Part shown: piece by piece, positions 4,657-25,755 of the stretch
Layout of the letters: every line of letters begins with the position of its first letter
Position numbering within the stretch: position 1 is the first letter of the stretch
Source: Emcibacter sp.
Lineage (GTDB): Bacteria; Pseudomonadota; Alphaproteobacteria; Sphingomonadales; Emcibacteraceae
DNA length: 64,000 nucleotides
Assembly (NCBI GenBank): GCA_021774785.1
Contig: JAJFIQ010000025.1
Coordinates: forward strand, 1-64,000
Direction of reading: 5' to 3'
The notes under the pieces: generated by a model
Told to the model about the DNA's origin: nothing
The model's database searches: none
Seen by the model: the letters and a program-made list of their open reading frames with translations, nothing else
Made by a program: the position numbers and the translations under genes

Positions 4657-4665
4657 GGGGATGCC

Positions 4666-4950
4666 ATGCTATTGATCAAATGCCCCTATTGTCAGGAAGA
4701 CAGACCGGAGATTGAGTTTTCTTATTCGGGAGAAGCTCATATTGCACGCCCCCTGAACCCGGATGATCTCAGCGATGAAGAATGGGCAGAATATCTGTTC
4801 ATTCGAAGCAACCGGCGGGGCCTGCATCATGAACGCTGGCTTCATGCCCATGGCTGTGCCCGCTTTTTCAACGCGTTGCGCGATACCGTCAGCGATAAAT
4901 TTGAACTGACCTATAAAATGGGTGAACCCAAAGCGCAGGTGAAAAAATGA
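4666..4950 (+). CDS. soxD: Sarcosine oxidase, delta subunit
   Basis: A small 94-residue protein beginning MLLIKCPYCQEDRPEIEF. The CPYC knuckle together with later His/Cys residues (about 53-62: HHERWLHAHGC) is the zinc-binding set of SoxD. The sequence E-W-x-x-Y-L-x-x-R-x-N-x-(R/K)-G is characteristic of the family. It is a structural subunit of the sarcosine oxidase complex. Its stop overlaps the soxA start by 4 bases, consistent with translational coupling. Confidence 0.94.
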   Translation: MLLIKCPYCQEDRPEIEFSYSGEAHIARPLNPDDLSDEEWAEYLFIRSNRRGLHHERWLHAHGCARFFNALRDTVSDKFELTYKMGEPKAQVKK

Positions 4951-7907
4951 CCCTTCATCGCAAACCAGAATATGGCCGGGTTAACCGGGGAAAGCCTATC
5001 AACTTCTCTTTTGACGGCAAAATATATTCGGCCTTTGACGGCGACAGTTTGGCCTCCGCCTTGCTGGCCCACGGCGTGCATCTGGTAGGCCGGTCGTTTA
5101 AATATCACCGGCCCCGTGGTTTTGTGGCTGCCGGACCGGAAGAACCCAATGCCTTAGTGACCTTCGATCGGGGGCCGGGCCGGGTGACGCCAAATGTGCG
5201 GGCGACAACACTGGAAGTGTTTGACGGGCTGGTGGCTCATTCTCAAAATAATTGGCCCAGCCTGACATTTGACATGGGTGCTGTAAATGATTTGTTTTAC
5301 ATGCTGTTTCCTGCGGGTTTTTATAATAAAACCTTCATGTGGCCAAAATCATTCTGGGATAGGGTTTATGAGCCTGCAATCCGGAAAATGGCTGGGCTTG
5401 GACCCGCCCCCATAGATGAAGATGCTGATATATATGCCAGTCAGTATATGCATTGTGAAACGTTGATTGTTGGGGCTGGGCCTGCGGGCATTGCCGCCGC
5501 TCTGGCCGCCTCTGAAAAGCCGGGACGGGTTATTCTTGTCGATGAGCAGTATGAATTTGGTGGGTCTCTGCTCTCCACACCTAACATGGTGATTAATGAC
5601 ATTCCCGCATGGCAGTGGCTTGAAGACAGTCTGGCAATTTTAAAGGCCCGTGAAAATGTCACCCTTTTGACGCGCACGACCGTCATAGGCTATTATCATG
5701 AAAATTTTCTGGGGGCTGTGGAACGCATCACTGATCATGAGAAGGATCTAAGCTCCCACAAACCAAGAGAGCGTCTGTACAAGATACGCGCTGGAGAAGT
5801 GGTTTTGGCGACGGGTGCCATTGAGCGTCCCCTTGTCTTTCAGAGTAATGACCGGCCCGGGGTGATGCTGGCTTCTGCAGCGCACACTTATTTAAACAGA
5901 TATGGCGTGGTTGTGGGGGAGAAAATTGCCCTCTTCACCTGTCACGATAGCGCCTATGAAGTGATCTTTGATCTGGCGGATGCTGGGATTTCCATTGCCG
6001 GTGTCATTGATGTGCGGGATCAGGTTTCCGAAACAATCATCGCGGCTGCCAAGGCACGGAATATAGAAATTCTCACGGGAACAATTGTGAGTGGCACGTC
6101 CGGAAAATTTCGGGTGAGTAGCCTGCGGGCCTCAAAAATTGAGGATGGAAAGATTACCTCTACTTGGGAAATCGCCTGTGACTGTCTGCTTATGTGCGGG
6201 GGTTGGACCCCTAGCATCCATTTATTCTCCCATTCAAAAGGAAGTCTGAAGTGGCGGGAGGATCTGGGGGCTTATATTCCAGATAACCCCAATGAAAATG
6301 TTATATCTGTCGGGGCCTGTAACGGCACATTTGGTCTCAGGAAAATTATGACTGAGGGCGCTGGTGGAAGCACAGAATATCAGGTTAATGCTGGTGCTTT
6401 TGGTTCTGGCATTATACCCGCTACTTTCCCCACGGAAGGAGATCCGGCCAAGGTAAAAGCCTTTGTTGATTTTCAAAATGATGTAACGGAAAAAGATATT
6501 AATCTTGCTGTGCGAGAAGGGCTTAAATCCATCGAACATGTCAAACGCTATACCACGACGGGTATGGCCACGGATCAGGGTAAGACATCGAACCTGAACG
6601 CCTTACAGATTGCCGCAAAGGCGGTTTATAAACCGGTGCAGCAAGTTGGTCTGACAACTTTCCGCCCGCCCTATACCCCGACGACCTTTGGTGCCTTGGT
6701 CGGGGGCAAGGACGGCCATAGTTTCCATGTAATCCGCAAAACACCAATGGATGGCTGGGCCGAAGATCATGGGGCGGTGTTTGAACCTGTTGCCCTTTGG
6801 CGGCGGGCACGCTATTTCCCCAGAGACGGCGAGGATATGCTGGCGGCGGTCAATAGAGAATGTCTGACGACACGCTGCTCGCTCGGGATTTTTGATGCCT
6901 CCACTCTGGGCAAGGTAGAAGTGATTGGCCCGGATGCGGCGGAATTCATGAACAGAATGTATACCAACCCTTGGTTAAAACTGAAACCGGGGTCTTGCCG
7001 CTATGGATTAATGCTGGGCGAGGATGGTTATATTATGGATGACGGGGTCATCGGACGGCTAGCCGAGAACCACTTTCATGTGACAACAACAACCGGTGGC
7101 GCACCAAGGGTTTTTCGCATGATGGAAGACTACCGCCAGACCGAATGGCCGGAGCTTGATGTCTGGCTGACTTCAACCACAGAACAATGGGCGGTTATCG
7201 CTCTTAATGGCCCCAATGCCCGCAAACTGATAGAACCTTTTGTCGAAGGGATAGACCTGAGTGAGGAAAAATTCCCCCATATGGCTGTTCGTGAAGGCCG
7301 CATCTGTGGTGTGGAAACCAGATTATTCCGGGTGAGTTTTTCGGGTGAGCTTGGCTTTGAAATCAATGTCCCTGCCCATTATGGCCGCGCCCTTTGGGAG
7401 ACGTTATTTATCGCCGGACAAAAATATGACATAACGCCTTATGGCACCGAAACCATGCATGTTCTGAGGGCAGAAAAAGGTTTCATCATTGTTGGGCAGG
7501 ATACGGATGGCACAGTAACGCCCATGGATGTGGGTATGTCGTGGGCCATTGGAAAGAAGAAAAAGGATTTTGTTGGTAAACGTTCTTTAAGCCGTCCGGA
7601 TATAATGGCTGAGGGAAGGAAACAGTTGGTCGGTCTGCTCACGGATGATCCAAATATTGTTCTGGAGGAAGGGGCGCAACTTATTGCCAATCCGGAACAG
7701 TCAATTCCCATGGACATGATAGGCCATGTCACTTCGTCTTATTGGAGTGCCACGTTAAACCGTTCAATAGCACTCGCCATGGTCAAAAACGGTCATGCGC
7801 TTACGGAAAGTAATGTCTATATTCCCATGCCGGGAAAAATCTATAAAGCCCAGGTGAGTAAGTGTGTATTTTATGATCCCAACGGGGAACGTCTTAATGT
7901 TATCTGA
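4947..7907 (+). CDS. soxA: Sarcosine oxidase, alpha subunit
   Basis: The 986-residue alpha subunit is full length. An N-terminal ferredoxin-like domain is followed by an NAD-binding flavoprotein region (VGAGPAGIAAALAAS near residue 175). From about residue 600 a GcvT-type domain binds tetrahydrofolate and captures the oxidised methyl group as methylene-THF. The gene overlaps soxD by 4 bases and soxG by 11. Together with SoxB, D and G it completes the step sarcosine to glycine, so C1 units from dimethylglycine enter the same folate pool as those from the corrinoid operon at 16.5-25.8 kb. Confidence 0.95.
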   Translation: MTLHRKPEYGRVNRGKPINFSFDGKIYSAFDGDSLASALLAHGVHLVGRSFKYHRPRGFVAAGPEEPNALVTFDRGPGRVTPNVRATTLEVFDGLVAHSQNNWPSLTFDMGAVNDLFYMLFPAGFYNKTFMWPKSFWDRVYEPAIRKMAGLGPAPIDEDADIYASQYMHCETLIVGAGPAGIAAALAASEKPGRVILVDEQYEFGGSLLSTPNMVINDIPAWQWLEDSLAILKARENVTLLTRTTVIGYYHENFLGAVERITDHEKDLSSHKPRERLYKIRAGEVVLATGAIERPLVFQSNDRPGVMLASAAHTYLNRYGVVVGEKIALFTCHDSAYEVIFDLADAGISIAGVIDVRDQVSETIIAAAKARNIEILTGTIVSGTSGKFRVSSLRASKIEDGKITSTWEIACDCLLMCGGWTPSIHLFSHSKGSLKWREDLGAYIPDNPNENVISVGACNGTFGLRKIMTEGAGGSTEYQVNAGAFGSGIIPATFPTEGDPAKVKAFVDFQNDVTEKDINLAVREGLKSIEHVKRYTTTGMATDQGKTSNLNALQIAAKAVYKPVQQVGLTTFRPPYTPTTFGALVGGKDGHSFHVIRKTPMDGWAEDHGAVFEPVALWRRARYFPRDGEDMLAAVNRECLTTRCSLGIFDASTLGKVEVIGPDAAEFMNRMYTNPWLKLKPGSCRYGLMLGEDGYIMDDGVIGRLAENHFHVTTTTGGAPRVFRMMEDYRQTEWPELDVWLTSTTEQWAVIALNGPNARKLIEPFVEGIDLSEEKFPHMAVREGRICGVETRLFRVSFSGELGFEINVPAHYGRALWETLFIAGQKYDITPYGTETMHVLRAEKGFIIVGQDTDGTVTPMDVGMSWAIGKKKKDFVGKRSLSRPDIMAEGRKQLVGLLTDDPNIVLEEGAQLIANPEQSIPMDMIGHVTSSYWSATLNRSIALAMVKNGHALTESNVYIPMPGKIYKAQVSKCVFYDPNGERLNVI

Positions 7908-8454
7908 ACTAAAAATAGACCAGGCTGTTGAACTTGCCCCGATACTGACGGGGGAAGTTGACCTATTGCCTGTACAGACCCGCTACAGCTTGCGGGTAAA
8001 ACCGAAAGAGCGTTGCGCCTTTATTGAGGCGAGCAATATTGACTTACCAGCTCAAATTGGCAAAATGTCCGTACAATATGACCGAGTAGTTCTTTGCATT
8101 GGGCCAGATGAATATATTTTAATTTGTAGCCTTGCCGAACGGGAACCCCTCGCACGGAAATTTGAAGAATTGATGGGTAAATATATCTTTAGCGCAACTG
8201 ATATTTCACACCGCAATGTGTCATTTATACTCAGTGGTGAACAGACCACAAATATGATAAATGTTGGCTGTCCTCTGGATTTATCTCTTGAAAATTTCCC
8301 CGTTGGAAAATGCACCCGTACTATTTTTGAAAGTGCGGAAATCATCCTTTTTCGTATGGGAAAAACTAAATTCCAGCTTGAAACATGGCGATCATTTGCG
8401 CCTTTTATAGTCGGTTATTTTGAAAAATATTGCCTGCAAAACAGGGGAAAATGA
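7897..8454 (+). CDS. soxG: Sarcosine oxidase, gamma subunit
   Basis: About 185 residues resembling SoxG, the least conserved subunit of the complex and itself related to the GcvT fold. I place the start at the ATG at 7897, preceded by GGGGAA, instead of the in-frame ATG 33 bases upstream that lies deeper inside soxA. The chosen start overlaps soxA by 11 bases. Codons are visibly richer in A and T than in soxA. Identity rests partly on position, since the sequence motif content is weak. Confidence 0.8.
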   Translation: MLSELKIDQAVELAPILTGEVDLLPVQTRYSLRVKPKERCAFIEASNIDLPAQIGKMSVQYDRVVLCIGPDEYILICSLAEREPLARKFEELMGKYIFSATDISHRNVSFILSGEQTTNMINVGCPLDLSLENFPVGKCTRTIFESAEIILFRMGKTKFQLETWRSFAPFIVGYFEKYCLQNRGK

Positions 8455-10940: not shown

Positions 10941-10971
10941 GGTTAGCTAATTGTTATATGATGTCAAGTTC

Positions 10972-13749: not shown

Positions 13750-15348
13750 GTGAGTGAATCTGTTATAATTACAAAAGTCGATCATAATTTTAATTCAAAA
13801 AACATTTACTTTTCCGGAATGGAATTTCATCCAACAGTTTTTTTCGTCTCAACTTTCTTAACGATAACTCTTGTTATTATTACACTCGCTTTTCCAGATG
13901 ACGCGGCTATTTTTTTTGCAAATATGCTGGAAATTGTGACTTCAAATTTTAACTGGTTGATGGCATCTCTTGCTAATTTATTTGTCGCAGTTTGTTTGAT
14001 CATCATGATTTCCCCCTATGGTAAAATACGTTTGGGAGGTGCAGGGGCCAAACCGGATTTTGGATATGTAGCTTGGTTTTCGATGTTATTTGCGGCGGGA
14101 ATGGGCGTTGGTTTGGTCTTCTTTGGCGTTAGTGAGCCGATAACCCATTTCACCAGTTCCCTGGCAACGGACGCGGGGCAGGCTTCAAGTTATGCGCCGT
14201 TGGGCGGAGCAATAGGAGATATTGCTGAATCAAAGCGGCTTGGGATGGCAGCAACGGTTTTTCATTGGACTTTGCATCCTTGGGCAACTTTTGTTCTTGT
14301 TGCACTGTCATTGGCGTTATCAAGCTATAATTCAGGGTTACCGCTTACAATACGCTCAGGATTTTATCCAATCTTTGGAGATCTCGTCTGGGGGCCGCTG
14401 GGTAGTGCAATTGATACACTCGCCGTGCTTGCTACGGTTTTTGGACTAGCAACATCATTGGGACTGGGCGCACAACAAGCTCTGTCAGGGTTCAATTTCC
14501 TGTTTGGAATTGAATATAATATAGGCAATCAGGTATTGGTAATTTTCGGTGTAGCCTTAGTTACGGTCTGCTCATTGTATTTGGGTCTGAGAAGGGGTGT
14601 CAGGCGATTAAGCGAGATAAACCTGATACTTGCGGCAGTATTATGCCTATTCATCGTCATTGCTGGTCCAACTATATTGATTTTGACGGATTTTACTAAA
14701 AACCTTGTCGCTTATATTCAGGAGTTGCCGGCACTTTCAAATCCTGTTGGCAGAAAGGATCAACCGTTTTTTAATCAATGGACGATTTTTTATTGGGCAT
14801 GGTGGGCGTCATGGGCACCTTTCGTAGGCATGTTTATTGCCCGAATTTCGCGGGGTCGTAGCGTTCGTGAATTTATCTTTTACGTTCTTTTAATTCCATC
14901 TGTTATCAGCACTTTCTGGATTACCACATTTGGATCAGTAGCCATTGATCAAATTGTCAGTCAGGGGCATACGGCTTTGGCGAATGCGGATTTACCCATC
15001 AAACTTTTTGTTATGCTGGAACAATTGCCCTTGGCAGGAATCACATCCTTTATCGGTATTATACTCGTACTGGTATTTTTCATAACCTCATGGGATTCAG
15101 GCTCTCTGGTGCTTGATACAATATCTGCTGGCGGGAAAATAGGCACAATGAAAACTCAACGCGTTTTATGGGTTGGTATTGTGGGTTTTGTTGCAATCGC
15201 ATTATTGGTTGGCGGTGGGTTAAAATCTTTACAATCAGCGTCAATCATTACCGGGCTGCCGTTTATGATAGTAATAGCAATACTTATCATCGGCATTCTC
15301 AAAAGCTTGTCCCAGGCATCTGAACAATTTTCAGAGACTGACGAATAA
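13750..15348 (+). CDS. BCCT-family betaine/carnitine/choline transporter
   Basis: The 532-residue membrane protein has about 12 hydrophobic segments and the family signature around FYWAWWASWAPFVGMFIARISRG'. The Trp-rich stretch is the substrate site of BetP/BetT-type transporters, which take up quaternary ammonium compounds by ion symport. I accept the GTG start at 13750 because GGGAGA lies 9 bases upstream. It lacks the long acidic or basic tails of osmosensing BetP, as expected for a catabolic uptake system. It probably imports the substrate demethylated by the surrounding enzymes. The gene is A/T-richer than the enzymes around it. Confidence 0.92.
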   Translation: MSESVIITKVDHNFNSKNIYFSGMEFHPTVFFVSTFLTITLVIITLAFPDDAAIFFANMLEIVTSNFNWLMASLANLFVAVCLIIMISPYGKIRLGGAGAKPDFGYVAWFSMLFAAGMGVGLVFFGVSEPITHFTSSLATDAGQASSYAPLGGAIGDIAESKRLGMAATVFHWTLHPWATFVLVALSLALSSYNSGLPLTIRSGFYPIFGDLVWGPLGSAIDTLAVLATVFGLATSLGLGAQQALSGFNFLFGIEYNIGNQVLVIFGVALVTVCSLYLGLRRGVRRLSEINLILAAVLCLFIVIAGPTILILTDFTKNLVAYIQELPALSNPVGRKDQPFFNQWTIFYWAWWASWAPFVGMFIARISRGRSVREFIFYVLLIPSVISTFWITTFGSVAIDQIVSQGHTALANADLPIKLFVMLEQLPLAGITSFIGIILVLVFFITSWDSGSLVLDTISAGGKIGTMKTQRVLWVGIVGFVAIALLVGGGLKSLQSASIITGLPFMIVIAILIIGILKSLSQASEQFSETDE

Positions 15349-15408: not shown

Positions 15409-16374
15409 TCAATTTTTCTTACGTTCAGTACTGGGGGGATAACCAAAATGCCGTCGGTAAGCCTGCGTAAAATGTGCGGCAGATTTAAACCCGCTGGCTA
15501 CAGCAATATGCAGAATTGGCATGGTGGTTTGCCGTAAGAGTAGTTGCGATTTTTGCAGGCGCAGCTCGAGATAATATTTTGAAGGTGTCATGCTTAAATG
15601 AGAGCGAAAAAGCCTTTCCAGTTGCCGTAGGGAAATATTTACACTCTGGGCAACATTGCTCAGGTCACGAGACGTTTCTATATTGGTTTCCATAAAGGCG
15701 ATGGCCGCAAGAAGCTTGGGGTTCTTAATGCCAGTTTTATGCTGGATAGGCATCCGTTGTGGGTCATGCTGTTTGCGCAGATTACTATGAAGCATCTGTT
15801 CAGCTACATTAATCGCTAAATGTTTGCCATGAGTTTGCGAAATAGCATAAATCATCATATCAAGGGGGGCTGTCCCGCCAGAGCAGGTATAACGGTTGCG
15901 ATCAATTTCAAAAAGGGTGGCCGTAACATCAAGATGGGGATAATTTTCCACAAAACTTTCGACATTTTCCCAATGTAAAGTGCATCTGTAGCCATCAAGT
16001 AAGCCAGCATCTGCAAGGGCAATAGAGCCTGTACAAACACTGCCAAGCGGCACGTTCGCCCGGGCATAGGACCGGAGTTGCCTAGAAATTATAATGTCTT
16101 TATATTCGCGAGTTTTGACACCGGCACAGACAAATAAAACATCAATGTCGATAGGGTCTGATATGGAACCATCAGGTGTAATTGTCACCCCATTACTGGC
16201 CGGTATAACGTTTCCGTTTATACTTAATGTTTTCCAATTATATAATTTTTTCCGGCTCATCCTGTTTGCCACACGGAGTGGTTCAATGCAGGATGTAAAA
16301 GCAATCATGGAAAAAAATGGTAAAAGCAAAAAACCTATCCTTTGGGTTTTATCGCTTCTTTGCTTCTCAAACAT
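15409..16374 (-). CDS. GbdR-like AraC-family regulator with DJ-1/PfpI domain
   Basis: The 321-residue protein has an N-terminal class I glutamine amidotransferase-like (DJ-1/PfpI) domain, with the nucleophile-elbow region GSVCTGSIALADAGLL near residues 111-126, and a C-terminal double helix-turn-helix AraC domain (about residues 215-318). This is the architecture of GbdR, CdhR and related activators of glycine-betaine, dimethylglycine and carnitine catabolism. It diverges from the fhs-mttB operon with a 121-base shared control region and converges on the BCCT gene. I infer that it senses a betaine or dimethylglycine and activates the corrinoid operon. Confidence 0.85.
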   Translation of the reverse strand: MFEKQRSDKTQRIGFLLLPFFSMIAFTSCIEPLRVANRMSRKKLYNWKTLSINGNVIPASNGVTITPDGSISDPIDIDVLFVCAGVKTREYKDIIISRQLRSYARANVPLGSVCTGSIALADAGLLDGYRCTLHWENVESFVENYPHLDVTATLFEIDRNRYTCSGGTAPLDMMIYAISQTHGKHLAINVAEQMLHSNLRKQHDPQRMPIQHKTGIKNPKLLAAIAFMETNIETSRDLSNVAQSVNISLRQLERLFRSHLSMTPSKYYLELRLQKSQLLLRQTTMPILHIAVASGFKSAAHFTQAYRRHFGYPPSTERKKN

Positions 16375-16495: not shown

Positions 16496-18208
16496 ATGTT
16501 AAAAGATAATCGTAATGACATTTTGCCCGCACCCGGTGCCCCGGATATTGAAATTGCGCGGGCCGCGTCCATGCAGCCCATATTACCTCTGGCCGCTGAC
16601 CATCTGGGCATCCCCCCGGAAGCTCTTGTGCCCTATGGACATTTTAAGGCAAAGCTTTCTCTGGATCATATTCATGCGATAAAAGATCGTCCGCAAGGCA
16701 AACTGGTGCTGGTCACGGCTGTCACGCCGACAGCCGCTGGCGAGGGGAAAACCACCACCAGTGTTGGCTTGAGTGACGGGCTAAATAAAATTGGTATTAA
16801 ATCAATGGTATGTTTGCGAGAACCGTCCCTTGGCCCCTGTTTCGGCATGAAGGGCGGAGCGGCTGGTGGCGGCAGAGCGCAGGTGGTCCCTATGGAAGAT
16901 ATCAATCTTCATTTTAATGGTGATTTTCATGCGATTACATCGGCTCATAACCTGTTGTCAGCCATGCTGGACAATCATATCCACTGGGGCAATGAGTTGA
17001 ATATAGATCCACGGCGTATTAGCTGGCGTCGGGTTGTGGATATGAATGATCGGGCTTTGCGTAATATTGTTATTGGTCTTGGCGGCCCGGTTCATGGTGT
17101 TCCGCGTGAAAATGGTTTCGATATTACGGTAGCTTCGGAAATCATGGCGATTTTCTGTTTGGCCGATGGTCTGACTGACCTGCAAAGGCGGCTTGGCGAT
17201 ATCATTGTCGCGCAGACCCATGAAAAAGAGCTGGTTACCGCGCGCGACCTTGGCGCGGATGGGGCCATGGCGGTTCTGTTGAAAGATGCCCTTGCCCCCA
17301 ATCTGGTGCAGACAATTGAAAATAACCTGTCATTCATTCACGGCGGACCCTTCGCTAATATTGCTCATGGCTGTAACAGTGTTATGGCGACAAAAGCCGC
17401 GCTGTTGCTTTCCGATGTCGTTGTTACCGAAGCGGGGTTCGGGGCTGATTTAGGTGCCGAAAAATTTATTGATATTAAATGCCGAAAGTCAGGTTTGCGG
17501 CCGGATGCTGTTGTGTTGGTCTGTACCATACGTGCCATGAAAATGCAGGGCGGCGTGGCGAAAGGAGCATTAAATCAGCCTGATCCACAAGCGGTAGAGA
17601 AAGGCTGTGTGAACCTTGTCCGCCATATTGAAAATATGAAAAAATTCAACATTACCCCCATCGTTGCCCTTAATCATTTTATCAAAGACACGAACGAAGA
17701 ATATGCCGTTATCCAGAAAATATGTGTTGAGCAAGGCGTGGAAATTTCCTTATCCAAACACTGGGAAAAAGGCGGAGAAGGCGCAGTTGAATTGGCGACC
17801 CTCGTCAAAGAAACCTTGGACGGGACGTCCGCTGAAGTTAATTTTCTTTATCCTGATGACGCGCCCTTCAAGAAAAAAATTAAAACGGTGGCAGAGGAGA
17901 TTTATCACGCCGGTGATGTGGCTTTCAGTCCTGCGGCAAGCCGTAGTCTGGCGGAATTTGAAAAACAGGGTTTCGGTAATCTGCCCGTATGCATTGCTAA
18001 AACACCCTATAGTTTTTCATCTGATCCCGCACTCTCCGGGGCCGCTGAAGGACATACGCTGGAGGTACGTGAAGTGCGCCTGTGTGCCGGGGCCGGATTT
18101 GTAGTTGCGGTATGTGGTAACCTTATGACCATGCCGGGTCTACCCAGAAAACCGTCGGCGCTTAATGTTGGTCTGGAAGAGAGTGGCGAGATTTTTGGGC
18201 TGTCTTAA
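16496..18208 (+). CDS. fhs: Formate-tetrahydrofolate ligase
   Basis: The 570-residue enzyme has the family P-loop (T[10 protein letters not shown], near residues 78-90) and the conserved segment [21 protein letters not shown]. It interconverts formate, ATP and THF with 10-formyl-THF. As first gene of the operon it provides the ATP-yielding exit when methyl groups are oxidised. Start ATG is preceded by AAGGA at 8 bases. A methylene-THF dehydrogenase/cyclohydrolase (FolD) is needed to link it to MetF and Sox; none is in the window, so it must be encoded elsewhere. Confidence 0.95.
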
Positions 18209-18231
18209 CCTCAAAAAAGAGAAGTAATATT

Positions 18232-18921
18232 GTGAGTGATGACGAAGAAGAAATTATCCTGCGGGATTTGAACGATGAGGAGCTGGTCGCCCAGATGCAG
18301 GATGACCTGTATGATGGTCTGCGTGATGAGGTATTTGAAGGTGTTGAAATACTTCTGGAGCGAAAATGGGATCCAAATGCCATTTTGTCTGATGCTCTGG
18401 TTGAGGGCATGCGTATCGTCGGCATAGATTTCAGGGACGGCATTCTCTTCGTGCCTGAAGTGTTGCAATGCGCCAGTGCCATGAAAGGCGGCATGGGTTT
18501 GTTGCGTCCGCTTCTGGCGGCCAGTGAACATGCCGCGAGCACCGGTAAATATGTCATTGGCACCGTCAAGGGTGATATTCATGATATTGGTAAAAATCTG
18601 GTTGGCATGATGCTTGAAGGAGCCGGTTTTGAAGTAATTGATCTTGGTATCAATAACCCGGTTGAAAATTATCTTGAGGCCATAGACAAGCATAAGCCGG
18701 ACATCCTTGGGATGTCGGCCTTGTTGACAACAACCATGCCCTATATGGGCGTGGTGATTGAGGAACTGGACAAGCGCGGTATTTTGAAAGAATTGCCGGT
18801 TATGGTCGGTGGTGCGCCGCTCAATCAGGAGTTTGCCGATGCGATCAACGCCCATACTTATGGCCGTGATGCGGCCATGAGCGCAGAGCTGGCAAAAACC
18901 ATCATTGGACGGAACAGATGA
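18232..18921 (+). CDS. Corrinoid (methyl-B12-binding) protein, MttC/MtgC family
   Basis: A 229-residue protein with an N-terminal four-helix cap (about 1-95) and a Rossmann-type B12 domain. The motif GDIHDIGKN at about residues 114-122 supplies the cobalt-ligating histidine (His117), with SALLTTTM and GGAPL as the other base-off/His-on motifs. It carries the methyl group between the substrate methyltransferase (MttB family, last gene) and the folate methyltransferase. GTG start at 18232. It begins 23 bases after fhs and ends 3 bases before the DUF1638 gene. Confidence 0.93.
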   Translation: MSDDEEEIILRDLNDEELVAQMQDDLYDGLRDEVFEGVEILLERKWDPNAILSDALVEGMRIVGIDFRDGILFVPEVLQCASAMKGGMGLLRPLLAASEHAASTGKYVIGTVKGDIHDIGKNLVGMMLEGAGFEVIDLGINNPVENYLEAIDKHKPDILGMSALLTTTMPYMGVVIEELDKRGILKELPVMVGGAPLNQEFADAINAHTYGRDAAMSAELAKTIIGRNR

Positions 18922-18924
18922 TCA

Positions 18925-19563
18925 ATGGGTAGCAAGGAATGTCATAAATGCCTGATTATTGCTTGCGGTGCTATCGCAGCTGAAATTGTGAAATTGCAAC
19001 GCCAGCAGTTCTTATTCAATGAGGCGATCACCCTGAAATGTCTGCCAGCGGACTATCATAATACACCCCAGAAAATCGCCCCGGCCATCGAAAAAATACT
19101 CATGGAGCAGCGGGATAAATATGATGTTGTTCTGGTGGGTTACGGCGATTGTGGTACGGGCGGCAGGCTTGATGCGGTTCTGGAAAAATATGATGCCACC
19201 CGTTTGCCCGGGGCGCATTGTTATGAATTTTTTGCCGGGGCCCAATTATTTGAAGATATGATTGAAGAAGAACTGGGCAGCTTCTTTGTCACGGATTATC
19301 TGGTGAGGTTTTTTGATCGTCTGGTGATAGAGGGGCTTGGCCTTGACCGCTATCCCCATTTATGTGAAATCTATTTTGCCAATTATAAGCGTGTGGTCTA
19401 TTTGGCACAGGAAGAAAATCCGGTTCTTGTTAAAAAAGCACAGGCTGCGGCCCATGTACTGGGCTTGCAGTTCCATTACCGCAAAGTAGGCTACGGCGAT
19501 CTTGGAAATACCTTTAAATCATTACCACTTAAAGCCTCAGGAGTGGCAAATGTATCAGGTTAG
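18925..19563 (+). CDS. DUF1638 family protein
   Basis: A 212-residue soluble protein recognisable as DUF1638 by LIIACGAIAAEI at the N-terminus and VLVGYGDCGTGG near residues 70-81, with conserved Cys and His residues (for example LPGAHCYEF). The family is uncharacterised and recurs beside MttB-type methyltransferase genes. The Cys/His set could bind metal or a corrinoid, but nothing in the sequence proves it. Its 3' end overlaps the metV-like gene by 14 bases, so it is co-translated with the folate-side enzymes. It is the least understood member of this operon. Confidence 0.85.
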   Translation: MGSKECHKCLIIACGAIAAEIVKLQRQQFLFNEAITLKCLPADYHNTPQKIAPAIEKILMEQRDKYDVVLVGYGDCGTGGRLDAVLEKYDATRLPGAHCYEFFAGAQLFEDMIEEELGSFFVTDYLVRFFDRLVIEGLGLDRYPHLCEIYFANYKRVVYLAQEENPVLVKKAQAAAHVLGLQFHYRKVGYGDLGNTFKSLPLKASGVANVSG

Positions 19564-19990
19564 ACTTTGGTCGACCCGCCATTCGCGGTCTATGGAACGG
19601 CTCTATGAGATCATGAATCCGGCGGTTCTGCTTTTCCTTCGCTGTATGACCAGAATATTGGGTCGCCGTCTTGACAGGCCGGTTACGGCGATCGAAAGAA
19701 CCATGAAGGGTTTTTTATTTGATTGTCAGATGTGCGGTGATTGTGTTCTGTCCAAAACCGGAATGAGCTGTCCGATGAATTGCCCGAAAACCATGCGTAA
19801 CGGCCCCTGTGGGGGGGTTAGGGCCAATGGTATGTGTGAGGTTAAACCGGATATGCGCTGTGTATGGGTAGAGGCATGGGCCGGGGCCAAAGATATGACG
19901 TCCGGCGGTGATATAAAACAAGTACAATTCCTGCTTGATTATAGGGATAAGGGCAAATCTTCATGGCTGAAGGTGGCGCGTGATGAATAA
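19550..19990 (+). CDS. metV: MetV-like zinc protein (methylene-THF reductase C-terminal domain family)
   Basis: About 146 residues from the ATG at 19550, chosen because AGGAG precedes it; an upstream in-frame ATG lies inside DUF1638. The region from about residue 58 is cysteine-rich (CQMCGDCVLSKTGMSCPMNC, then GPCGG, C and C), which is the pattern of the 'MTHFR_C' family. In acetogens such as Moorella this family is MetV, which forms the MetFV methylene-THF reductase with MetF. Here it overlaps metF by 8 bases. The symbol is by family and context, not proven. Confidence 0.8.
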   Translation: MYQVRLWSTRHSRSMERLYEIMNPAVLLFLRCMTRILGRRLDRPVTAIERTMKGFLFDCQMCGDCVLSKTGMSCPMNCPKTMRNGPCGGVRANGMCEVKPDMRCVWVEAWAGAKDMTSGGDIKQVQFLLDYRDKGKSSWLKVARDE

Positions 19991-20993
19991 GATTAAAGAT
20001 ATTGCACGTCCGGGTGATCCCTTGCCGATCCTGTCCGGTCATGTGTCTAATGGACGGTTTGAGCGGGTATTGCGGGCAGGCCACTTCGCCGTAACCACGG
20101 AAATTGCACCGCCAGATTCAAGTGACCCCAGGGAAGTTCTCATCCGGGCACGATTGTTTGATGGTTATGTGGATGCCATCAATGCCACAGACGGGTCTGG
20201 GGCACATTGTCACATGTCGAGCCTTGCAGTATGTGCCATACTGACTCGGGTTGGTTATTCGCCGATCATTCAAATATCCTGCCGTGACCGCAACCGGATT
20301 GCTATTCAGGGCGATATTCTGGGGGCGGCTGCGCTGGGGGTATGCAATGTGTTAAGTCTGACCGGTGATGATGTGAGTGCCGGAGATCATCCCAGTGCCA
20401 AACCCGTCTTTGATCTGGATAGCGTGTCACTGCTCGGAACCATTAAAATCATGCGGGATGAGGCCCGTTTTCTCAGTGGCAGACCTTTGGATAGTGCACC
20501 AAATTTATTTCTTGGCTCAACCATCAACCCATTCGTACCGCCTGTGCGGAACCGGGTTGATCAGCTAGCCAAGAAAATAAAGGCCGGGGCGCAATATATT
20601 CAGTCACAATATTGTTTTGACCTTGATCTGTTAAAGCCCTTCATGAAACGCGCCGTTGACGAAGGCCTGACCAATGACTGTTTCATTCTGATCGGTGTTG
20701 GCATACTGGCTTCGGCAAGAACTGCGCGGTGGCTTCGTGAGAATGTTCCCGGCGTACATATTCCCGATGACATCATTGACCGGCTGGAGGCGTCCAAGGA
20801 CCAAAAAACCGAGGCGCGTAAAATATCTGTCGAACTCATGCAGAAAATTAAGGAAATAGAAGGCGTAAGCGGCATTCATGTCATGGCTTACAAGCAGGAA
20901 AAACATGTGGCTGAGGTAGTTAAACAATCGGGCATCTTAGCCGGAAGACAACCCTGGGCACCACAAAGAACAGAAGTTGAAATAAAGGAATAA
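19983..20993 (+). CDS. metF: Methylenetetrahydrofolate reductase
   Basis: The roughly 336-residue protein is a MetF-type TIM barrel binding FAD and folate: VTTEIAPPDSSD at the start, NATDG, CRDRNRIAIQ and SLTGDD are family segments. In this operon it would run as a methyl-THF oxidase, turning methyl-THF from the corrinoid pathway into methylene-THF. I choose ATG 19983 over GTG 19980 since AAGGTGG then sits 6 bases upstream. It overlaps the metV-like gene, so the pair is likely made stoichiometrically. It lacks a C-terminal SAM-binding regulatory domain. The electron acceptor is unknown. Confidence 0.9.
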   Translation: MNKIKDIARPGDPLPILSGHVSNGRFERVLRAGHFAVTTEIAPPDSSDPREVLIRARLFDGYVDAINATDGSGAHCHMSSLAVCAILTRVGYSPIIQISCRDRNRIAIQGDILGAAALGVCNVLSLTGDDVSAGDHPSAKPVFDLDSVSLLGTIKIMRDEARFLSGRPLDSAPNLFLGSTINPFVPPVRNRVDQLAKKIKAGAQYIQSQYCFDLDLLKPFMKRAVDEGLTNDCFILIGVGILASARTARWLRENVPGVHIPDDIIDRLEASKDQKTEARKISVELMQKIKEIEGVSGIHVMAYKQEKHVAEVVKQSGILAGRQPWAPQRTEVEIKE

Positions 20994-20995
20994 CT

Positions 20996-21892
20996 ATGAC
21001 CAGAACAATCATCAGCTCCGCAACAAAAGAAGTCGTGATGGGCTTTGACCAACCCTTTGTCATGATCGGCGAGCGGATTAATCCGACGGGTCGTCCGAAA
21101 TTCTCCGCAGAGCTTAAAGCTGGTGATTACTGGCGGGTAAAGGAAGATGCTCTGGCACAAGTGGCGGCAGGGGCGCAGGTACTTGATGTCAATGCGGGTG
21201 TGCCCTTGGCGGATGAGCCAAAAATTCTGGCCGAAATCGTTGAACTGGTACAATCCCTGACCGATGTGCCGCTTTGTATTGACAGCTCCATCATCGCTGC
21301 ACTTGAGGCCGGGCTGAAGGTCTATAAGGGCAAGGCACTGGTCAATTCAACCACGGCAGAAGAAGAAGTTCTGGAACAGGTTCTACCGCTTGTGGCAAAA
21401 TACGGTGCAGCTGTGGTGGCGATTTCAAACGATGAAACGGGTATTTCAGAAGACCCGGACGAGCGATTTGAAGTGGCAAAACGTATTGTAGAGCATGCGG
21501 CAGATTATGGCATCAAACCGGAAGATGTGGTGGTTGATCCCCTTGTTATGCCCATTGGTGCCGTGACCACTGCCGGACAGGATGTGTTCCGGCTCATTCG
21601 GCGTCTACGCGATGAACTGAAAGTCAATACCACCTGTGGGGCATCCAATGTCAGTTTTGGACTGCCAAACCGTCAGGCCATAAACAATGCCTTTCTGCCC
21701 ATGCTGGCCACGGCGGGTATGACATCGGCGATTTTAAACGTGACCCATGAAGGTCAGGTGGCGGCAGTAAAGGCTGCGGATGTTCTAAATGGTGTTGATC
21801 CCCATTGTGCAAACTGGATTAAAACATATCGTCAGCCACCCGCAGAAGGTGAAGGCCGAGGTGGTCGTCGTGGCAGCAGACGTAGAGGTTAA
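20996..21892 (+). CDS. Methyl-THF:corrinoid methyltransferase (AcsE/MtgA-like, pterin-binding family)
   Basis: A 298-residue TIM-barrel protein of the dihydropteroate-synthase/MeTr superfamily: IGERINPTGRPKF, QVLDVNAG, CIDSS and TTCGASNVSFGLPNR are the folate-binding motifs of AcsE/MtgA-type enzymes. It moves a methyl group between a corrinoid protein and tetrahydrofolate; here the logical direction is methyl-corrinoid to methyl-THF. It follows metF by 2 bases. The last 15 residues are an odd Arg/Gly-rich tail (GRGGRRGSRRRG), echoed in the two last proteins of the operon. It is not FolP, since no folate-synthesis genes accompany it here and the motifs are of the MeTr branch. Confidence 0.88.
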   Translation: MTRTIISSATKEVVMGFDQPFVMIGERINPTGRPKFSAELKAGDYWRVKEDALAQVAAGAQVLDVNAGVPLADEPKILAEIVELVQSLTDVPLCIDSSIIAALEAGLKVYKGKALVNSTTAEEEVLEQVLPLVAKYGAAVVAISNDETGISEDPDERFEVAKRIVEHAADYGIKPEDVVVDPLVMPIGAVTTAGQDVFRLIRRLRDELKVNTTCGASNVSFGLPNRQAINNAFLPMLATAGMTSAILNVTHEGQVAAVKAADVLNGVDPHCANWIKTYRQPPAEGEGRGGRRGSRRRG

Positions 21893-22286
21893 GACATATA
21901 TCGGGGGCTGCCGTTGTGGACAGGTGAGCTTCACGGCGGTTGGTCTATCTGATATTTGGTATTGCCATTGTTCCCAATGCCGCTCCGTAACGGGGCACTT
22001 TTTGGCGGCTGCGGGTGTGTCAAGAGCAGGTTTTACCCATAAGGGAAATCTGCGCTGGACAGCCGTTTCAGTAACAACAGATTTCGGTTACTGCATTAAA
22101 TGTGACAGCTTGTTGTTTTGGAGCCATAAAAAGAGAGATAATATTAGTATTATGGCGGGCAGCATTGAAAACACCAAAAGACTTGAAGTTAAGGGACATG
22201 TTTTTGTAGGTGACAAGGCTGACTATTACGACATCACCGATGGCCTGCCACAATATGAAGCTTACCCAGAGAAAGGAACCAGATAA
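21870..22286 (+). CDS. GFA/CENP-V family zinc protein
   Basis: About 138 residues from a GTG at 21870, which has GAGGTGG 5 bases upstream and overlaps the preceding gene by 23 bases. Seven cysteines follow the GFA pattern: GGCRCG, YCHCSQC, and FGYCIKC near the C-terminus. The family includes the protein named glutathione-dependent formaldehyde-activating enzyme, although many members have other or unknown roles. Placement inside a methyl-oxidising operon makes handling of formaldehyde leaking from methylene-THF a reasonable idea, not a demonstrated one. Confidence 0.78.
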   Translation: MAADVEVKTYIGGCRCGQVSFTAVGLSDIWYCHCSQCRSVTGHFLAAAGVSRAGFTHKGNLRWTAVSVTTDFGYCIKCDSLLFWSHKKRDNISIMAGSIENTKRLEVKGHVFVGDKADYYDITDGLPQYEAYPEKGTR

Positions 22287-22289
22287 GAC

Positions 22290-24215
22290 ATGGGCAGACA
22301 TACGGTTATATTTACACCATCCGGTATTCGGGCTGATGCTGAGGAGGGGGAAAATATATATGATGTGGCCCTGCGTGCTGGTGTGGATATACAGTCCATA
22401 TGCGGCGGCAAAGGCCAGTGCCGAAGGTGCCAGATCGAACTGGGCATGGGCAAACATGCCAAGTTTAATCTTGATGTTAAGGAAAATCATCTGAGTGATA
22501 CAAGCCCGACGGAGAAAAGGGCGATCCGTGACGGTAATCTTGCCGAAGGGCGGCGTTTGGCCTGCCGCACAAAAATATGTGGTGATGTTGTCATTGAAAT
22601 CCCTTCTGATTCTCAGGAACATAAAACCAGTATTTCCAAAAATTCAGCCGAAATCAACACCACATTGAATCCGGCCATAAATCTCTATTGGTGCCATCTT
22701 CCCGTGCCCACATTAGAAGATAACCCCGTTGATGAAGTGGCACTTGCTGCTGCGCTAAAAATTTTTGGAGTGACAGCAAAACCCACCCACCATAGCCTGA
22801 CAAAATTACAAAAAGTCCTAAGGCGTCATGACCGTTCGCTGATTGCCGTGGTCCGGGATGACTGTGAGATCATTGATATCTGGCCGCCCTCTGACAGGGA
22901 TGCTTATGGCGCGGCGCTGGATATCGGTTCAACTTCTCTGGCGCTTTATATCTATAACCTTTCCACGGGTAATCTAGTTTATGAGCAGGCGGAGATGAAC
23001 CCGCAAATTCGGTTCGGTGAAGATGTGATGAGCAGGGTGTCCTATATCATGATGAACAAAGGCGGTGAGCATAGGCTGACGGGTGAAATCAGGAAGCAAG
23101 TTGCCCAAATGCTCCGTCAGGCGCGGGCGGTTCTTGACATAGACATGGAACAACTTCTGGAGCTGGTCGTCGTCGGTAATCCGATTATGCATCATCTGTT
23201 CCTCGGGATCAATCCGGTTGAGCTGGGACAGGCCCCGTTTACTTTGGCGGTTAAAGACTGGTTCGAAGCCCCGGCCAGTCATTTTGACCTGGGATTGGCG
23301 GATGGGGCAAGGGTGGCCTGTTTGCCTCTCATCGGCGGTCATGTGGGTGCAGATACAACCGGGGCATACCTCACCCAGATGGACCGTATGACAGGCCGCT
23401 CCGTCCTGCTGGTTGATATTGGCACGAACGCTGAAATTATACTGTCCCACAAGGGGCGAATTGCGGCGGCGTCATCTCCCACAGGCCCGGCTTTTGAAGG
23501 GGCAGAAATAAGTTCCGGTGTCCGGGCAACCATTGGTGCCATTGAGCGGGTAAGGATTGACCCGATAAGTAAAATCCCCCGGATTAAAATCATCGGTTGT
23601 GAAGATTGGCTGTCTGATAATCCACAAGGCCACAATATTATCGGTATATGTGGCTCCGGTATTTTTGAGATCATGGTGGAACTGGCGGGTGCCGGGCTTA
23701 TGGATGAAACCGGTTTATTTCTTCCTGCGGCGGCACCAGAGCGGTTTGAACAGGATGGCAATATCTGGAAATATCGCCTTATTGATGAAATCTATATCAA
23801 ACAAACTGATATTCGCGCAGTTCAACTGGCCAAGGCAGCCCTTCATGCGGGGGTGAGTTTACTAACAGAGTATTTAGGGTGCGACGCGTTAGATGAAATT
23901 CTGCTCGCCGGAGCCTTTGGCACTCACCTTGATCCGAAATATGTCGCCGAGATTGGCATTATTCCGGGCGCTACTACCAAGCTCATACACTCTATAGGCA
24001 ATGCCGCTGGCATGGGGGCCGCCATGACCGTCTTAAACAAGGATGACAAGGCGCGGCTCATCGAAGCTGTCACCTATATAGAAAAAATTGAAACTGCCAT
24101 GGAGCCGAAATTCCAAGATTATTTCGTTGCTGCCATGCGCTTTCCTACCGCACCACCCGTAGCACCTGATACGGGCAAGAACAAACGGCGTCGCCGCAAC
24201 AGCAAAGGAAGATAA
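22290..24215 (+). CDS. RACo-type corrinoid-protein reductive activator (2Fe-2S / ASKHA ATPase)
   Basis: The 641-residue protein has an N-terminal plant-type [2Fe-2S] ferredoxin domain (Cys38, Cys44, Cys47 in CGGKGQCRRC and a fourth Cys near LACRTKIC), a linker, and a C-terminal DUF4445/ASKHA ATPase domain with AALDIGSTS, LLVDIGTNAEI and LLAGAFGTHLDP. RACo proteins reduce inactive Co(II) corrinoids to Co(I) using ATP. The gene sits 3 bases after the GFA gene and 1 base before mttB. The end is basic (KNKRRRRNSKGR). Its presence means the corrinoid protein is expected to oxidise accidentally, as it must in an oxygen-exposed cell. Confidence 0.92.
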   Translation: MGRHTVIFTPSGIRADAEEGENIYDVALRAGVDIQSICGGKGQCRRCQIELGMGKHAKFNLDVKENHLSDTSPTEKRAIRDGNLAEGRRLACRTKICGDVVIEIPSDSQEHKTSISKNSAEINTTLNPAINLYWCHLPVPTLEDNPVDEVALAAALKIFGVTAKPTHHSLTKLQKVLRRHDRSLIAVVRDDCEIIDIWPPSDRDAYGAALDIGSTSLALYIYNLSTGNLVYEQAEMNPQIRFGEDVMSRVSYIMMNKGGEHRLTGEIRKQVAQMLRQARAVLDIDMEQLLELVVVGNPIMHHLFLGINPVELGQAPFTLAVKDWFEAPASHFDLGLADGARVACLPLIGGHVGADTTGAYLTQMDRMTGRSVLLVDIGTNAEIILSHKGRIAAASSPTGPAFEGAEISSGVRATIGAIERVRIDPISKIPRIKIIGCEDWLSDNPQGHNIIGICGSGIFEIMVELAGAGLMDETGLFLPAAAPERFEQDGNIWKYRLIDEIYIKQTDIRAVQLAKAALHAGVSLLTEYLGCDALDEILLAGAFGTHLDPKYVAEIGIIPGATTKLIHSIGNAAGMGAAMTVLNKDDKARLIEAVTYIEKIETAMEPKFQDYFVAAMRFPTAPPVAPDTGKNKRRRRNSKGR

Positions 24216-24216
24216 A

Positions 24217-25755
24217 ATGACTGAGGAAAGAAAAACCAGAAGAGGCGGCAGACGTGGACGCGGTAAAATTACTGCAAAAACGGTAAAACGTGATCCCTAC
24301 ATTATCCGTAAAATCCCGGCCTATGAAATTCTGGGTGCTGCGGATTTGGCGCAACTGGAATATAATGCGGATACAATATTGGAAGAGATCGGTATTGATA
24401 TAAAAGAAGATCAGGAATCCATTGATATATTTGTCGCAGCCGGAGCCACCGCAGAGGGCGAACGGGTTCACTTCCCGCGTGGCATGTGTCGGGAAATCAT
24501 TCAGAAATCCGCGCCCGGTATATTCACACAATATGCCCGCAATCCGGAAAATAATGTTGAAATTGGTGGCATGAATACAGTACTGGTCCCAGCCTATGGC
24601 TCACCCTTTGTCTATTCCCGTGAAGGCGGACGCCGCTATGCCAAAATTGAGGACTTCAGAAATTTTGTCAAGCTTGCCTATATGTCACCGGCCTTGCATC
24701 ATTCAGGGGGAACCATATGCGAACCCGTAGATTTACCAGTTAATAAACGTCATTTTGATATGATATACAGCCATATTAAATATTCTGATAAGGCGTTTAT
24801 GGGGTCGGTTACAGCCCCTGAGCGGGCGGAAGATTCCATCTCTATGGTCAAAATTGTCTTTGGTGATGATTTTGTTGAGGAAAACTGTGTATTGATCAAT
24901 CTGATCAATGCCAATTCACCACTGACATTTGATAGCGTCATGCTCGGCGCCCTCAAGGTTTATGCCCGGCATAATCAATGTTCCATGGTTAGCCCGTTCA
25001 TCGTCGCCGGGGCTATGTCTCCGGTTACAGTTGCCGCCGTTGCAGCGCAAAGTCTGGCCGAAGGCATGGTCGGCATGGCACTGGCCCAACTGATCCGGCC
25101 AGGATGTCCGGTGATTTATGGTAATTTTGTAAGCTCCATGTCCATGCAGTCGGGCGCACCAACTTTCGGCACACCGGAAGCCTCGCAACTGATCAATATA
25201 GGCGCGTCTCTGGCGCGGCGTCTGGGGGTTCCCTTCCGCAGTGCCGGGGGCTTTAATGCCGCCAAAACCGCAGATGCTCAAGCCGCCTATGAGGCGGCAA
25301 ATACACTGCAGGCCGGATTGCTCGCCGGGGTTAATTTCATGCTTCATACAGCAGGCTGGCTCGAAGGTGGCCTCGCCATGGGTTACGAGAAATTTATTAT
25401 GGATGCGGATCAGGCCGGAATGATGGCGGTCTATGCCAAGGGGGTCAGTATGGATGAAAATGCCCAGGCCCTTGATGCCACCCGGGAAGTGGGTCCGGGT
25501 AAACATTTCCTCGGCTGTGCCCATACTCAGGTAAATTTCAAAACCGCCTTTTTTACCTCTGTCATTTCCGATAACAACAGTTACGAGCAATGGGTGGAAG
25601 ATGGCAGTCTTGATGCGGAGCAGCGTGCGGAGAAAATCTACAAGCAGATGCTTGCCAACTATGCTCCCCCCGCACTGGACCCCGAAATTGATGCCAGATT
25701 AATCACCTTCATGGAAACCAGAAAAGCCAGTTTTGAGGATTCCAATATCAGTTAA
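24217..25755 (+). CDS. MttB-family quaternary-amine methyltransferase, non-pyrrolysine type
   Basis: The 512-residue protein is a full-length member of the trimethylamine methyltransferase family. The frame is continuous with no in-frame amber codon, so it is not a pyrrolysine enzyme. Non-pyrrolysine members include MtgB (glycine betaine) and related enzymes for proline betaine, carnitine and butyrobetaine, and they methylate a cognate corrinoid protein. Given the adjacent DMGDH, sarcosine oxidase and BCCT genes, glycine betaine is the best guess. The N-terminus carries a basic Arg/Gly stretch (RKTRRGGRRGRGK). It is the last gene of the operon. Confidence 0.9.
   Translation: MTEERKTRRGGRRGRGKITAKTVKRDPYIIRKIPAYEILGAADLAQLEYNADTILEEIGIDIKEDQESIDIFVAAGATAEGERVHFPRGMCREIIQKSAPGIFTQYARNPENNVEIGGMNTVLVPAYGSPFVYSREGGRRYAKIEDFRNFVKLAYMSPALHHSGGTICEPVDLPVNKRHFDMIYSHIKYSDKAFMGSVTAPERAEDSISMVKIVFGDDFVEENCVLINLINANSPLTFDSVMLGALKVYARHNQCSMVSPFIVAGAMSPVTVAAVAAQSLAEGMVGMALAQLIRPGCPVIYGNFVSSMSMQSGAPTFGTPEASQLINIGASLARRLGVPFRSAGGFNAAKTADAQAAYEAANTLQAGLLAGVNFMLHTAGWLEGGLAMGYEKFIMDADQAGMMAVYAKGVSMDENAQALDATREVGPGKHFLGCAHTQVNFKTAFFTSVISDNNSYEQWVEDGSLDAEQRAEKIYKQMLANYAPPALDPEIDARLITFMETRKASFEDSNIS

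Follow-up and report, generated by a model that had tools for sequence, protein, structure and literature searches.

The 64,000-nucleotide stretch of Emcibacter DNA analysed here (the window) raises the question of what a block of corrinoid and folate one-carbon genes does beside genes for the oxidative demethylation of dimethylglycine and sarcosine. The ORF list of the window contains nine consecutive + strand genes at 16496-25755, all with open frames, which were assigned as follows.

16496..18208, + strand: fhs, formate-tetrahydrofolate ligase (PF01268, 3e-258; NF010030, 878 bits against a cut-off of 652)
18232..18921, + strand: MtgC-like corrinoid protein (PF02310, B12-binding, 2e-26; PF02607, B12-binding_2)
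18925..19563, + strand: DUF1638 protein, presumed cobalamin-reactivation helper (PF07796, 1e-26)
19502..19990, + strand: metV, small Cys-rich subunit of an acetogen-type methylene-THF reductase (PF12225, DUF5981, 1e-27; ORF as listed, real start probably later)
19980..20993, + strand: metF paralogue, putative catabolic MTHFR (PF02219, 3e-34)
20996..21892, + strand: MtgD-like methyl-THF:corrinoid methyltransferase (PF00809, Pterin_bind, 1e-29; NF005719, 366 bits against a cut-off of 259)
21789..22286, + strand: GFA-fold protein (PF04828, 2e-14; ORF as listed, Pfam match from residue 37)
22290..24215, + strand: RACo-type corrinoid reductive activator with an N-terminal 2Fe-2S domain (RACo_C_ter, 5e-71; middle, linker and Fer2 domains)
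24217..25755, + strand: MttB-superfamily methyltransferase, probable glycine betaine:corrinoid methyltransferase, MtgB (PF06253, MTTB, 7e-217)

The widest intergenic gap is 23 bases, between fhs and the corrinoid gene. The listed metV and GFA frames overlap their respective preceding genes; the actual start codons may be located further downstream. The ORF list and the Pfam families thus bear out the original prediction of nine genes on one strand, separated by 23 bases or less or overlapping. The identical nine-gene order was found in 7 of 80 related loci, so the arrangement is not a chance one. These results confirm that the one-direction nine-gene operon is real, and its genes are probably co-expressed.

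The genes upstream of the operon are listed below.

359..958, + strand: TetR regulator resembling BetI (TIGR03384, 113 bits, below the cut-off of 201)
955..3393, + strand: dimethylglycine/sarcosine dehydrogenase-type flavoprotein with a GcvT domain (DAO, FAO_M, GCV_T, GCV_T_C)
3406..8454, + strand: soxBDAG, heterotetrameric sarcosine oxidase (soxB 3406-4656, soxD 4666-4950, soxA 4947-7907, soxG 7864-8454; TIGR01373 and TIGR01372 above cut-off; PF04267, PF04268)
13750..15348, + strand: BCCT betaine/choline/carnitine-type transporter (PF02028, 8e-162; TIGR00842 above cut-off; NF047988, 474 bits, below the cut-off of 650)
15409..16374, - strand: AraC-type regulator with a DJ-1/PfpI-like domain, GbdR-like and divergent from fhs (PF12833, PF01965; NF052371 GbdR, 381 bits, below the cut-off of 480)

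The predicted sarcosine oxidase and dimethylglycine dehydrogenase (DMGDH) neighbours are therefore present as soxB, soxA and a DMGDH-type FAD plus GCV_T protein, and soxD and soxG complete the oxidase. Against a betaine reading, the GbdR, BetI and betaine-BCCT models all scored below their cut-offs. Among the 11 alphaproteobacterial loci of at least 20 kb, soxA was found near mttB in 3, soxB in 2, a BCCT gene in 2 and a DMGDH gene in 0; the alphaproteobacterial set comprises loci L002-L025 and L054 and was assigned by record titles, L007 being titled only Proteobacteria. The 4 usable regions preceding fhs gave no convincing motif for a common regulator-binding site, and within the window no candidate cobalamin riboswitch scored at the gathering threshold.

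We consider that, with a probability of roughly 0.83, the operon handles the first methyl in a complete locus for the aerobic catabolism of glycine betaine, of the MtgBCD type. In this pathway, the BCCT carrier would bring betaine into the cell, and MttB (as MtgB) would use one betaine methyl to methylate the Co(I) of MtgC, the corrinoid protein, giving dimethylglycine. MtgD would pass the methyl from the corrinoid protein to tetrahydrofolate, and MetV-MetF would oxidise methyl-THF to methylene-THF. The DMGDH-type enzyme and SoxBDAG would demethylate dimethylglycine and sarcosine, and since their GcvT domains can load methylene-THF, all three betaine methyls would converge at that intermediate. 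FolD and Fhs would then yield formate and ATP, with formate dehydrogenase producing CO2 and a part going to serine. RACo, using ATP and its 2Fe-2S domain, would re-reduce accidentally oxidised Co(II) with the assistance of DUF1638.

For the conservation counts below, each alignment combined the window sequence with those ORFs that had 75-130% of the query length and ended in a stop codon within their locus (loci kept: MttB 77 of 80, corrinoid protein 47, RACo 42, DUF1638 39, MetV 33, GFA 19). The MttB frame has no internal stop and hence no pyrrolysine codon, which agrees with the prediction of a non-Pyl protein, as does its uninterrupted PF06253 match. A pyrrolysine-type trimethylamine methyltransferase was considered and rejected, there being no in-frame amber codon and a TIGR02369 score of 234.8 bits against a cut-off of 525. 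MttB is the sole PF06253 match in its own genome (search of 28 contigs), and its matches in the PDB include 4yyc (8e-202) and the MtgB structures 2qne/9yce (about 1e-135). Docking has predicted Y94, N199, R309 and H345 as betaine contacts of the Desulfitobacterium hafniense enzyme DhMtgB (PMC6855144, available text). All four were matched in 78/78 MttB rows. The docking residue F353 is replaced by Gly and the I350 position by Trp, again in 78/78 rows, so the pocket differs from that of D. hafniense MtgB. The operon most likely serves glycine betaine demethylation. That the same machinery acts instead on carnitine, proline betaine, choline or gamma-butyrobetaine, with the flanking genes serving the product or forming a separate regulon, seems unlikely: the single MttB lies close to a full set of genes for using dimethylglycine and sarcosine, as a betaine demethylase needs, and keeps 4/4 docking-predicted contacts. 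The Gly at position F353 and a carnitine dehydrogenase near the related Paracoccus cluster favour such a substrate, as does the reported preference of Eubacterium MttB-superfamily enzymes for proline betaine, gamma-butyrobetaine, carnitine or phosphocholine (PMC12478193, available text). The range of quaternary amines on which members of the superfamily act is, in itself, an observation against the betaine assignment.

The genome (28 contigs, contamination 2.22) was searched for other betaine routes, as the original prediction had proposed for BHMT and GbcAB, and neither was found in one family search each. No Ring_hydroxyl_A protein, the family (PF00848) that we take GbcA to carry, is present in the 28 contigs. 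The sole S-methyl_trans (PF02574) protein is MetH-N, leaving no BHMT besides the split MetH; it overlaps the start of MetH2 and is 29% identical to a Sinorhizobium meliloti protein annotated bmt. A second fhs (on contig C11), FolD and formate dehydrogenase are also encoded. Formate plus ATP via Fhs is a plausible outcome. The predicted route from betaine through methyl-corrinoid and methyl-THF to methylene-THF is thus well supported, since it fits the operon genes, their flanks, a genome in which these searches found no GbcA-type oxygenase or non-MetH BHMT, and the presence of the second Fhs, FolD and formate dehydrogenase.

The residues expected to hold cofactors are conserved. In the corrinoid protein, DIHDIG, presumably the cobalamin-ligand motif, lies at residues 115-120, and its residues are conserved in 95% or more of the 48 rows. 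The protein scored below the cut-offs of the NCBIfam models for glycine betaine-specific MtgC, NF047996 (195.4 bits against a cut-off of 370) and NF047995 (156.8 against 310). RACo has C38, C44, C47 and C92 in 43/43 rows and scored 317 bits against NCBIfam AcsV, under the cut-off of 800. Its RACo_C_ter domain is, we assume, the former DUF4445; with Fer2, RACo domains and a PF07796 protein, the operon combines a RamA-like (ferredoxin plus DUF4445) activator with DUF1638. The latter has C14, C76 and C99 in 40/40 rows and C39 in 37/40. Its predicted structure is confident (mean pLDDT 90); Foldseek returned no match at E<=0.001 and VIA-align 2 none at Z >=8 (best 7.3), and the sequence search of the PDB at E<=1 returned only a designed protein (E 0.43). 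DUF1638 is presumed to help cobalamin reactivation. In the GFA protein, seven Cys positions are conserved in no fewer than 19 of the 20 rows each, and its gene adjoins mttB with no RACo gene between them in L002, L014, L018, L020 and L023; it presumably has a role in the operon.

MetV has seven Cys in 34/34 rows and an eighth in 29/34, enough for two predicted 4Fe-4S clusters, and its PF12225 gene adjoins the PF02219 gene, which points to a type II MetVF pair. It gave no PDB relative by sequence at E<=1. An acetogen-type MetV with seven invariant Cys thus occurs in an aerobe. The operon MetF is a second MetF, 24% identical over 203 aa to the canonical MetF that adjoins MetH. The description of the operon as Wood-Ljungdahl-like holds as a loose analogy only: a PF03599 match on MtgD is the sole CODH/ACS-related match above cut-off, and the Pfam and NCBIfam search of the operon proteins found no CODH/ACS subunit proper. 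The MetVF and Fhs reactions probably run in the oxidative direction. An operon working in reverse, as a reductive route from formate to methyl-THF and methyl-corrinoid, would match the reductive role of MetVF in acetogens (PMC8760232, available text), but is extremely improbable given the lack of a CODH/ACS subunit proper in the operon, the betaine catabolic flanks, the three COX1-family oxidases in the genome and the catabolic nature of the published aerobic relative (PMC12478193). A tentative extension of the oxidative reading, with the odds against it, is that MetVF runs reversed in air, passing methyl-THF electrons through the clusters to ferredoxin or electron-transfer flavoprotein and on to ubiquinone rather than NAD, and that DUF1638 is a Cys-based partner of RACo.

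The split MetH is complete: it carries pterin, B12 and activation domains of its own and lies beside the canonical MetF. Because a complete, self-activating MetH exists, the operon module looks purely catabolic and separate from methionine synthesis. In Ruegeria pomeroyi, by comparison, dual use of such a module has been demonstrated (PMC12478193), and homologous subunits serve methionine synthesis in Phaeobacter inhibens (PMC5764234). A corrinoid protein and MtgD that also feed methionine synthesis are nevertheless very unlikely in Emcibacter, where the corrinoid protein of the operon shares just 32% identity with the MetH domain and no homocysteine-methyltransferase subunit besides MetH-N was found. 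Since only MetH-N has PF02574 and a full MetH2 follows it, a dual role with MtgE is not required. A riboswitch followed by B12-import-type genes is present in the genome, and B12 appears to be imported.

The pairing of anaerobic and aerobic chemistry, which the original prediction presented as a new surprise, did not hold up as such. Aerobic, cobalamin-dependent MtgBCD betaine demethylation was shown genetically in R. pomeroyi DSS-3 by Mausz et al. in 2025 (PMC12478193, available text), which rules out novelty of the combination; the operon is therefore a new example, not a new phenomenon. In that study, mtgC and mtgD mutants failed on betaine, MetF2, RamA-like and DUF1638 proteins rose, mtgBCD was also present in 28 of the 239 genomes with metH, and demethylation-gene operons in other marine bacteria were mentioned. 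Both systems have an MttB-family MtgB, a stand-alone MtgC, a pterin MtgD, a second MetF, a RamA-like activator and DUF1638, followed by dimethylglycine and sarcosine steps. In Emcibacter, by contrast, fhs, metV and GFA are part of the single operon and MetH is complete, so that the module needs no dual methionine role. The terms MetV, Fhs, RACo and formate do not occur in the available text of that study, and among the literature matches listed none reported either MetV or RACo from an aerobe that uses betaine; DUF1638 is named in three of the papers covered. In aerobically grown P. inhibens, a corrinoid protein works with the same RamA-like and DUF1638 helpers in methionine synthesis (PMC5764234, available text).

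Clusters on S. meliloti pSymB and a Paracoccus methylovorus plasmid also group RACo, mtgD, metF, metV, DUF1638, corrinoid and mttB genes. Seven of the nine proteins have homologues in these named alphaproteobacterial clusters, at 41-68% identity: corrinoid protein 68% (S. meliloti), MtgD 64-66%, MetF 62-64%, MttB 61%, MetV 54-56% (56% over 142 aa in S. meliloti), DUF1638 45-47% and RACo 41-44%. These clusters differ in that mttB is divergent from the rest and that fhs and GFA are not listed, in a gene table that is incomplete. The S. meliloti cluster has a 112-aa hypothetical protein between mtgD and RACo, with no blastp match to GFA at 1e-3, and bmt nearby. The anaerobic D. hafniense MtgB is likewise an MttB-superfamily protein without pyrrolysine, whereas the Emcibacter corrinoid protein falls below the MtgC cut-offs and the host is aerobic with another gene context. 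CmuAB of Methylobacterium extorquens CM4 also moves a corrinoid methyl to THF in an aerobe, with a distant MetF2 and oxidation to formate; it uses another substrate and methyltransferase, and the available text names FolD and PurU, not Fhs (PMC3621897). Acetogen type II MetVF shares the adjoining metV and metF and the Cys-rich MetV (PMC8760232), whereas the Emcibacter pair, known here from its genes, occurs in an aerobe and is presumably oxidative.

Together, these results suggest that Emcibacter has, packed into a single compact operon, its version of an aerobic route, recognised only recently, that consumes a major marine osmolyte. Loss of mtgC in Ruegeria also gives methionine auxotrophy (PMC12478193), whereas the Emcibacter module looks unconnected with methionine synthesis and its host seems to import B12; the module may therefore be a cleaner setting in which to study MetV, DUF1638 and GFA. 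If MetVF feeds ubiquinone, the first, oxygen-independent demethylation would also supply respiration.

The nine genes of the proposed operon (fhs, corrinoid protein, DUF1638, metV, metF, mtgD, GFA, RACo and mttB; 16496-25755, + strand) were all found by ORF coordinates, gaps and profile families. The widest intergenic gap in the ORF listing was 23 bases, between fhs and the corrinoid gene, and the mttB reading frame was uninterrupted. The listed upstream starts of the metV and GFA ORFs overlap the gene before. Since their Pfam matches begin only at residues 57 and 37, respectively, the true starts may lie farther in than listed. The window covers positions 1-64000 of contig C18. The genome comprises 3.50 Mb over 28 contigs, with a completeness of 100 and a contamination of 2.22. 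In the features below, the names GbdR-like, BetI-like and betaine BCCT denote NCBIfam scores under the curated cut-offs.

Features flanking the operon and elsewhere in the window
Upstream: BetI-like TetR regulator (NCBIfam BetI 113, below the curated cut-off of 201)
Upstream: DMGDH-type flavoprotein with GcvT domains
Upstream: soxBDAG (SoxA and SoxB above NCBIfam cut-offs)
8878-13482: TonB-dependent receptor and TPR-sulfotransferase, between soxG and the BCCT gene
Upstream: BCCT carrier (betaine BCCT model 474, below the cut-off of 650)
Upstream, divergent: GbdR-like AraC regulator (GbdR model 381, below the cut-off of 480)
26200-26273, opposite strand: tRNA, downstream
Downstream: gamma-glutamyltranspeptidase
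54892-56685: dnaX
56780-56876, minus strand: bacterial small SRP RNA, beside dnaX

The window MttB was compared with solved structures. By sequence, it is near 4yyc (8e-202), farther from D. hafniense MtgB (2qne and 9yce, ~1e-135) and remote from the trimethylamine methyltransferase 7xcl (6e-26). Betaine-contact residues of DhMtgB were proposed from docking (PMC6855144). In a visual comparison of the aligned sequences, the docking-predicted Y94, N199, R309 and H345 were matched in 78/78 MttB rows, and all 78 had Gly at F353 and Trp at I350. Because the contacts come from a docking prediction and the relatives were chosen for closeness to the window, this comparison is no more than supportive of betaine as substrate.

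The genome search for BHMT and GbcAB, named as a check in the original prediction, returned no match to the GbcA-type oxygenase family (PF00848; 4/14 control genomes positive) and a single match to the BHMT family (PF02574; 9/14 controls positive). The latter is the 363-residue N-terminal half of MetH, which overlaps the start of an 877-residue protein carrying the pterin, B12 and activation domains. With this split MetH, which a canonical MetF gene precedes, methionine synthesis has a complete enzyme of its own. Profile searches further revealed five B12-binding domains, two Fhs proteins and one FolD in the genome, and one of 14 stretches matching formate dehydrogenase alpha (TIGR01591) scored above the cut-off. 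CbiC/CobH, the sole B12-biosynthesis family covered, had no match (7/14 controls positive), and the single cobalamin riboswitch found in the genome precedes genes of TonB receptor, periplasmic binding protein, FecCD permease and ABC ATPase families (contig C11, 743063-747802 for riboswitch and genes together). Together, these results suggest that B12 is imported rather than made, and that the organism is a B12 auxotroph harbouring two B12-dependent methyltransferase systems.

In S. meliloti pSymB and a P. methylovorus plasmid, RACo, mtgD, metF, metV, DUF1638, corrinoid protein and mttB are grouped together. The seven proteins share 41-68% identity with those of the window, whereas the operon corrinoid protein, MtgD and MetF share 32%, 33% and 24% with the genome's own MetH/MetF over aligned stretches. 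On these identities, the operon is a separate set that belongs to the same type as the one in S. meliloti, a species named in PMC12478193 as holding MtgBCDE and both reactivation modules together. Unlike the window's operon, the S. meliloti cluster (L116:7108-9567) has small 'virulence factor' and formyl transferase genes amid the mtg genes. On an Azoarcus plasmid, mttB stands without the RACo, mtgD, metF, metV, DUF1638 and corrinoid partners in the stretch listed, and beside it lie ETF-ubiquinone oxidoreductase and folD.

A scan for MttB relatives confirmed at least 575 among at least 593 pattern matches, and the best 80 loci were kept, many clipped by contig ends (41/80 reach at least 20 kb). 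Neighbours in these 80 were corrinoid protein (49), mtgD (48), RACo (43), DUF1638 (42), metF (39), metV (37), GFA (28), DMGDH (24), AraC (23), fhs (21), soxA and BCCT (15 each), soxB (13), TonB receptor (12) and sulfotransferase (10). The identical nine-gene order occurred in seven (L003, L004, L005, L008, L011, L017 and L025). Receptor and sulfotransferase homologues were both near mttB in 10/80; two further such pairs in the own-genome stretches examined were 38-39% (receptor) and 52-53% (sulfotransferase) identical, one annotated pair adjoining glycerophosphodiesterase, FAD-oxidase and MFS transporter genes.

The core set is nearly constant in the 11 loci of at least 20 kb taken as alphaproteobacterial: corrinoid protein, DUF1638 and mtgD 11/11, metV and metF 10/11, fhs, GFA and RACo 9/11, AraC 8/11. 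Betaine-type flanks were few there (soxA 3/11, soxB and BCCT 2/11 each, DMGDH 0/11), so inference from flanks is weaker for these loci. Within the window's taxonomic order, MttB was present in 6/118 sampled genomes, own included (5/95 of good quality), a patchiness consistent with gain and loss.

Cofactor residues were conserved. The operon corrinoid protein has a DIHDIG motif, RACo keeps four N-terminal Cys in 43/43 rows, and MetV has seven Cys in 34/34 rows and an eighth in 29/34. For C. ljungdahlii (MetVF)2, PMC8760232 gives an iron content matching two 4Fe-4S clusters in MetV. metV accompanied metF in 37/39 loci, the exceptions being L010 and L013, where the contig starts inside metF. A universal metF/metV role is countered by 10/48 mtgD loci in which no metF passed the threshold (L019, L022, L053, L055, L067, L068, L070, L071, L075 and L080), part of which contig ends perhaps explain; in L075, metF is matched weakly (45% identity) and metV is absent. 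DUF1638 keeps C14, C76 and C99 in 40/40 rows and C39 in 37/40; methionine rescues P. inhibens DUF1638 mutants (PMC5764234). GFA has seven Cys, each kept in at least 19/20 rows. In L002:1-3060, an Emcibacter sp. MAG locus with the closest MttB among the matches listed (94% identical), a divergent AraC gene and GFA directly precede mttB without RACo. This match, from a collection that may omit records of the genome itself, points to an Emcibacter-like alphaproteobacterium as the probable host of the window. Since GFA likewise adjoins mttB without RACo in L014, L018, L020 and L023, there is a hint that GFA is tied to MttB function.

GcvT domains of the DMGDH and SoxA families can load methylene-THF. 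Because DMGDH and SoxA carry these domains, all three betaine methyl groups would meet at methylene-THF. Type II MetVF enzymes, when purified, showed no use of NAD(P)H (PMC8760232); the ETF-ubiquinone oxidoreductase by mttB in Azoarcus is one clue hinting that electrons may pass from MetVF to quinone. Three COX1-family proteins, a family that also takes in nitric oxide reductases, were found by profile search and support a predicted oxygen respiration. The proposed route from betaine through methyl-corrinoid to methylene-THF appears mostly right. The surprise attached to combining aerobic and corrinoid chemistry is low, because an aerobic corrinoid system appeared in print in 2025. The remaining interest lies in the presence of MetV alongside metF, an arrangement that is independent of MetH, and the puzzling DUF1638.
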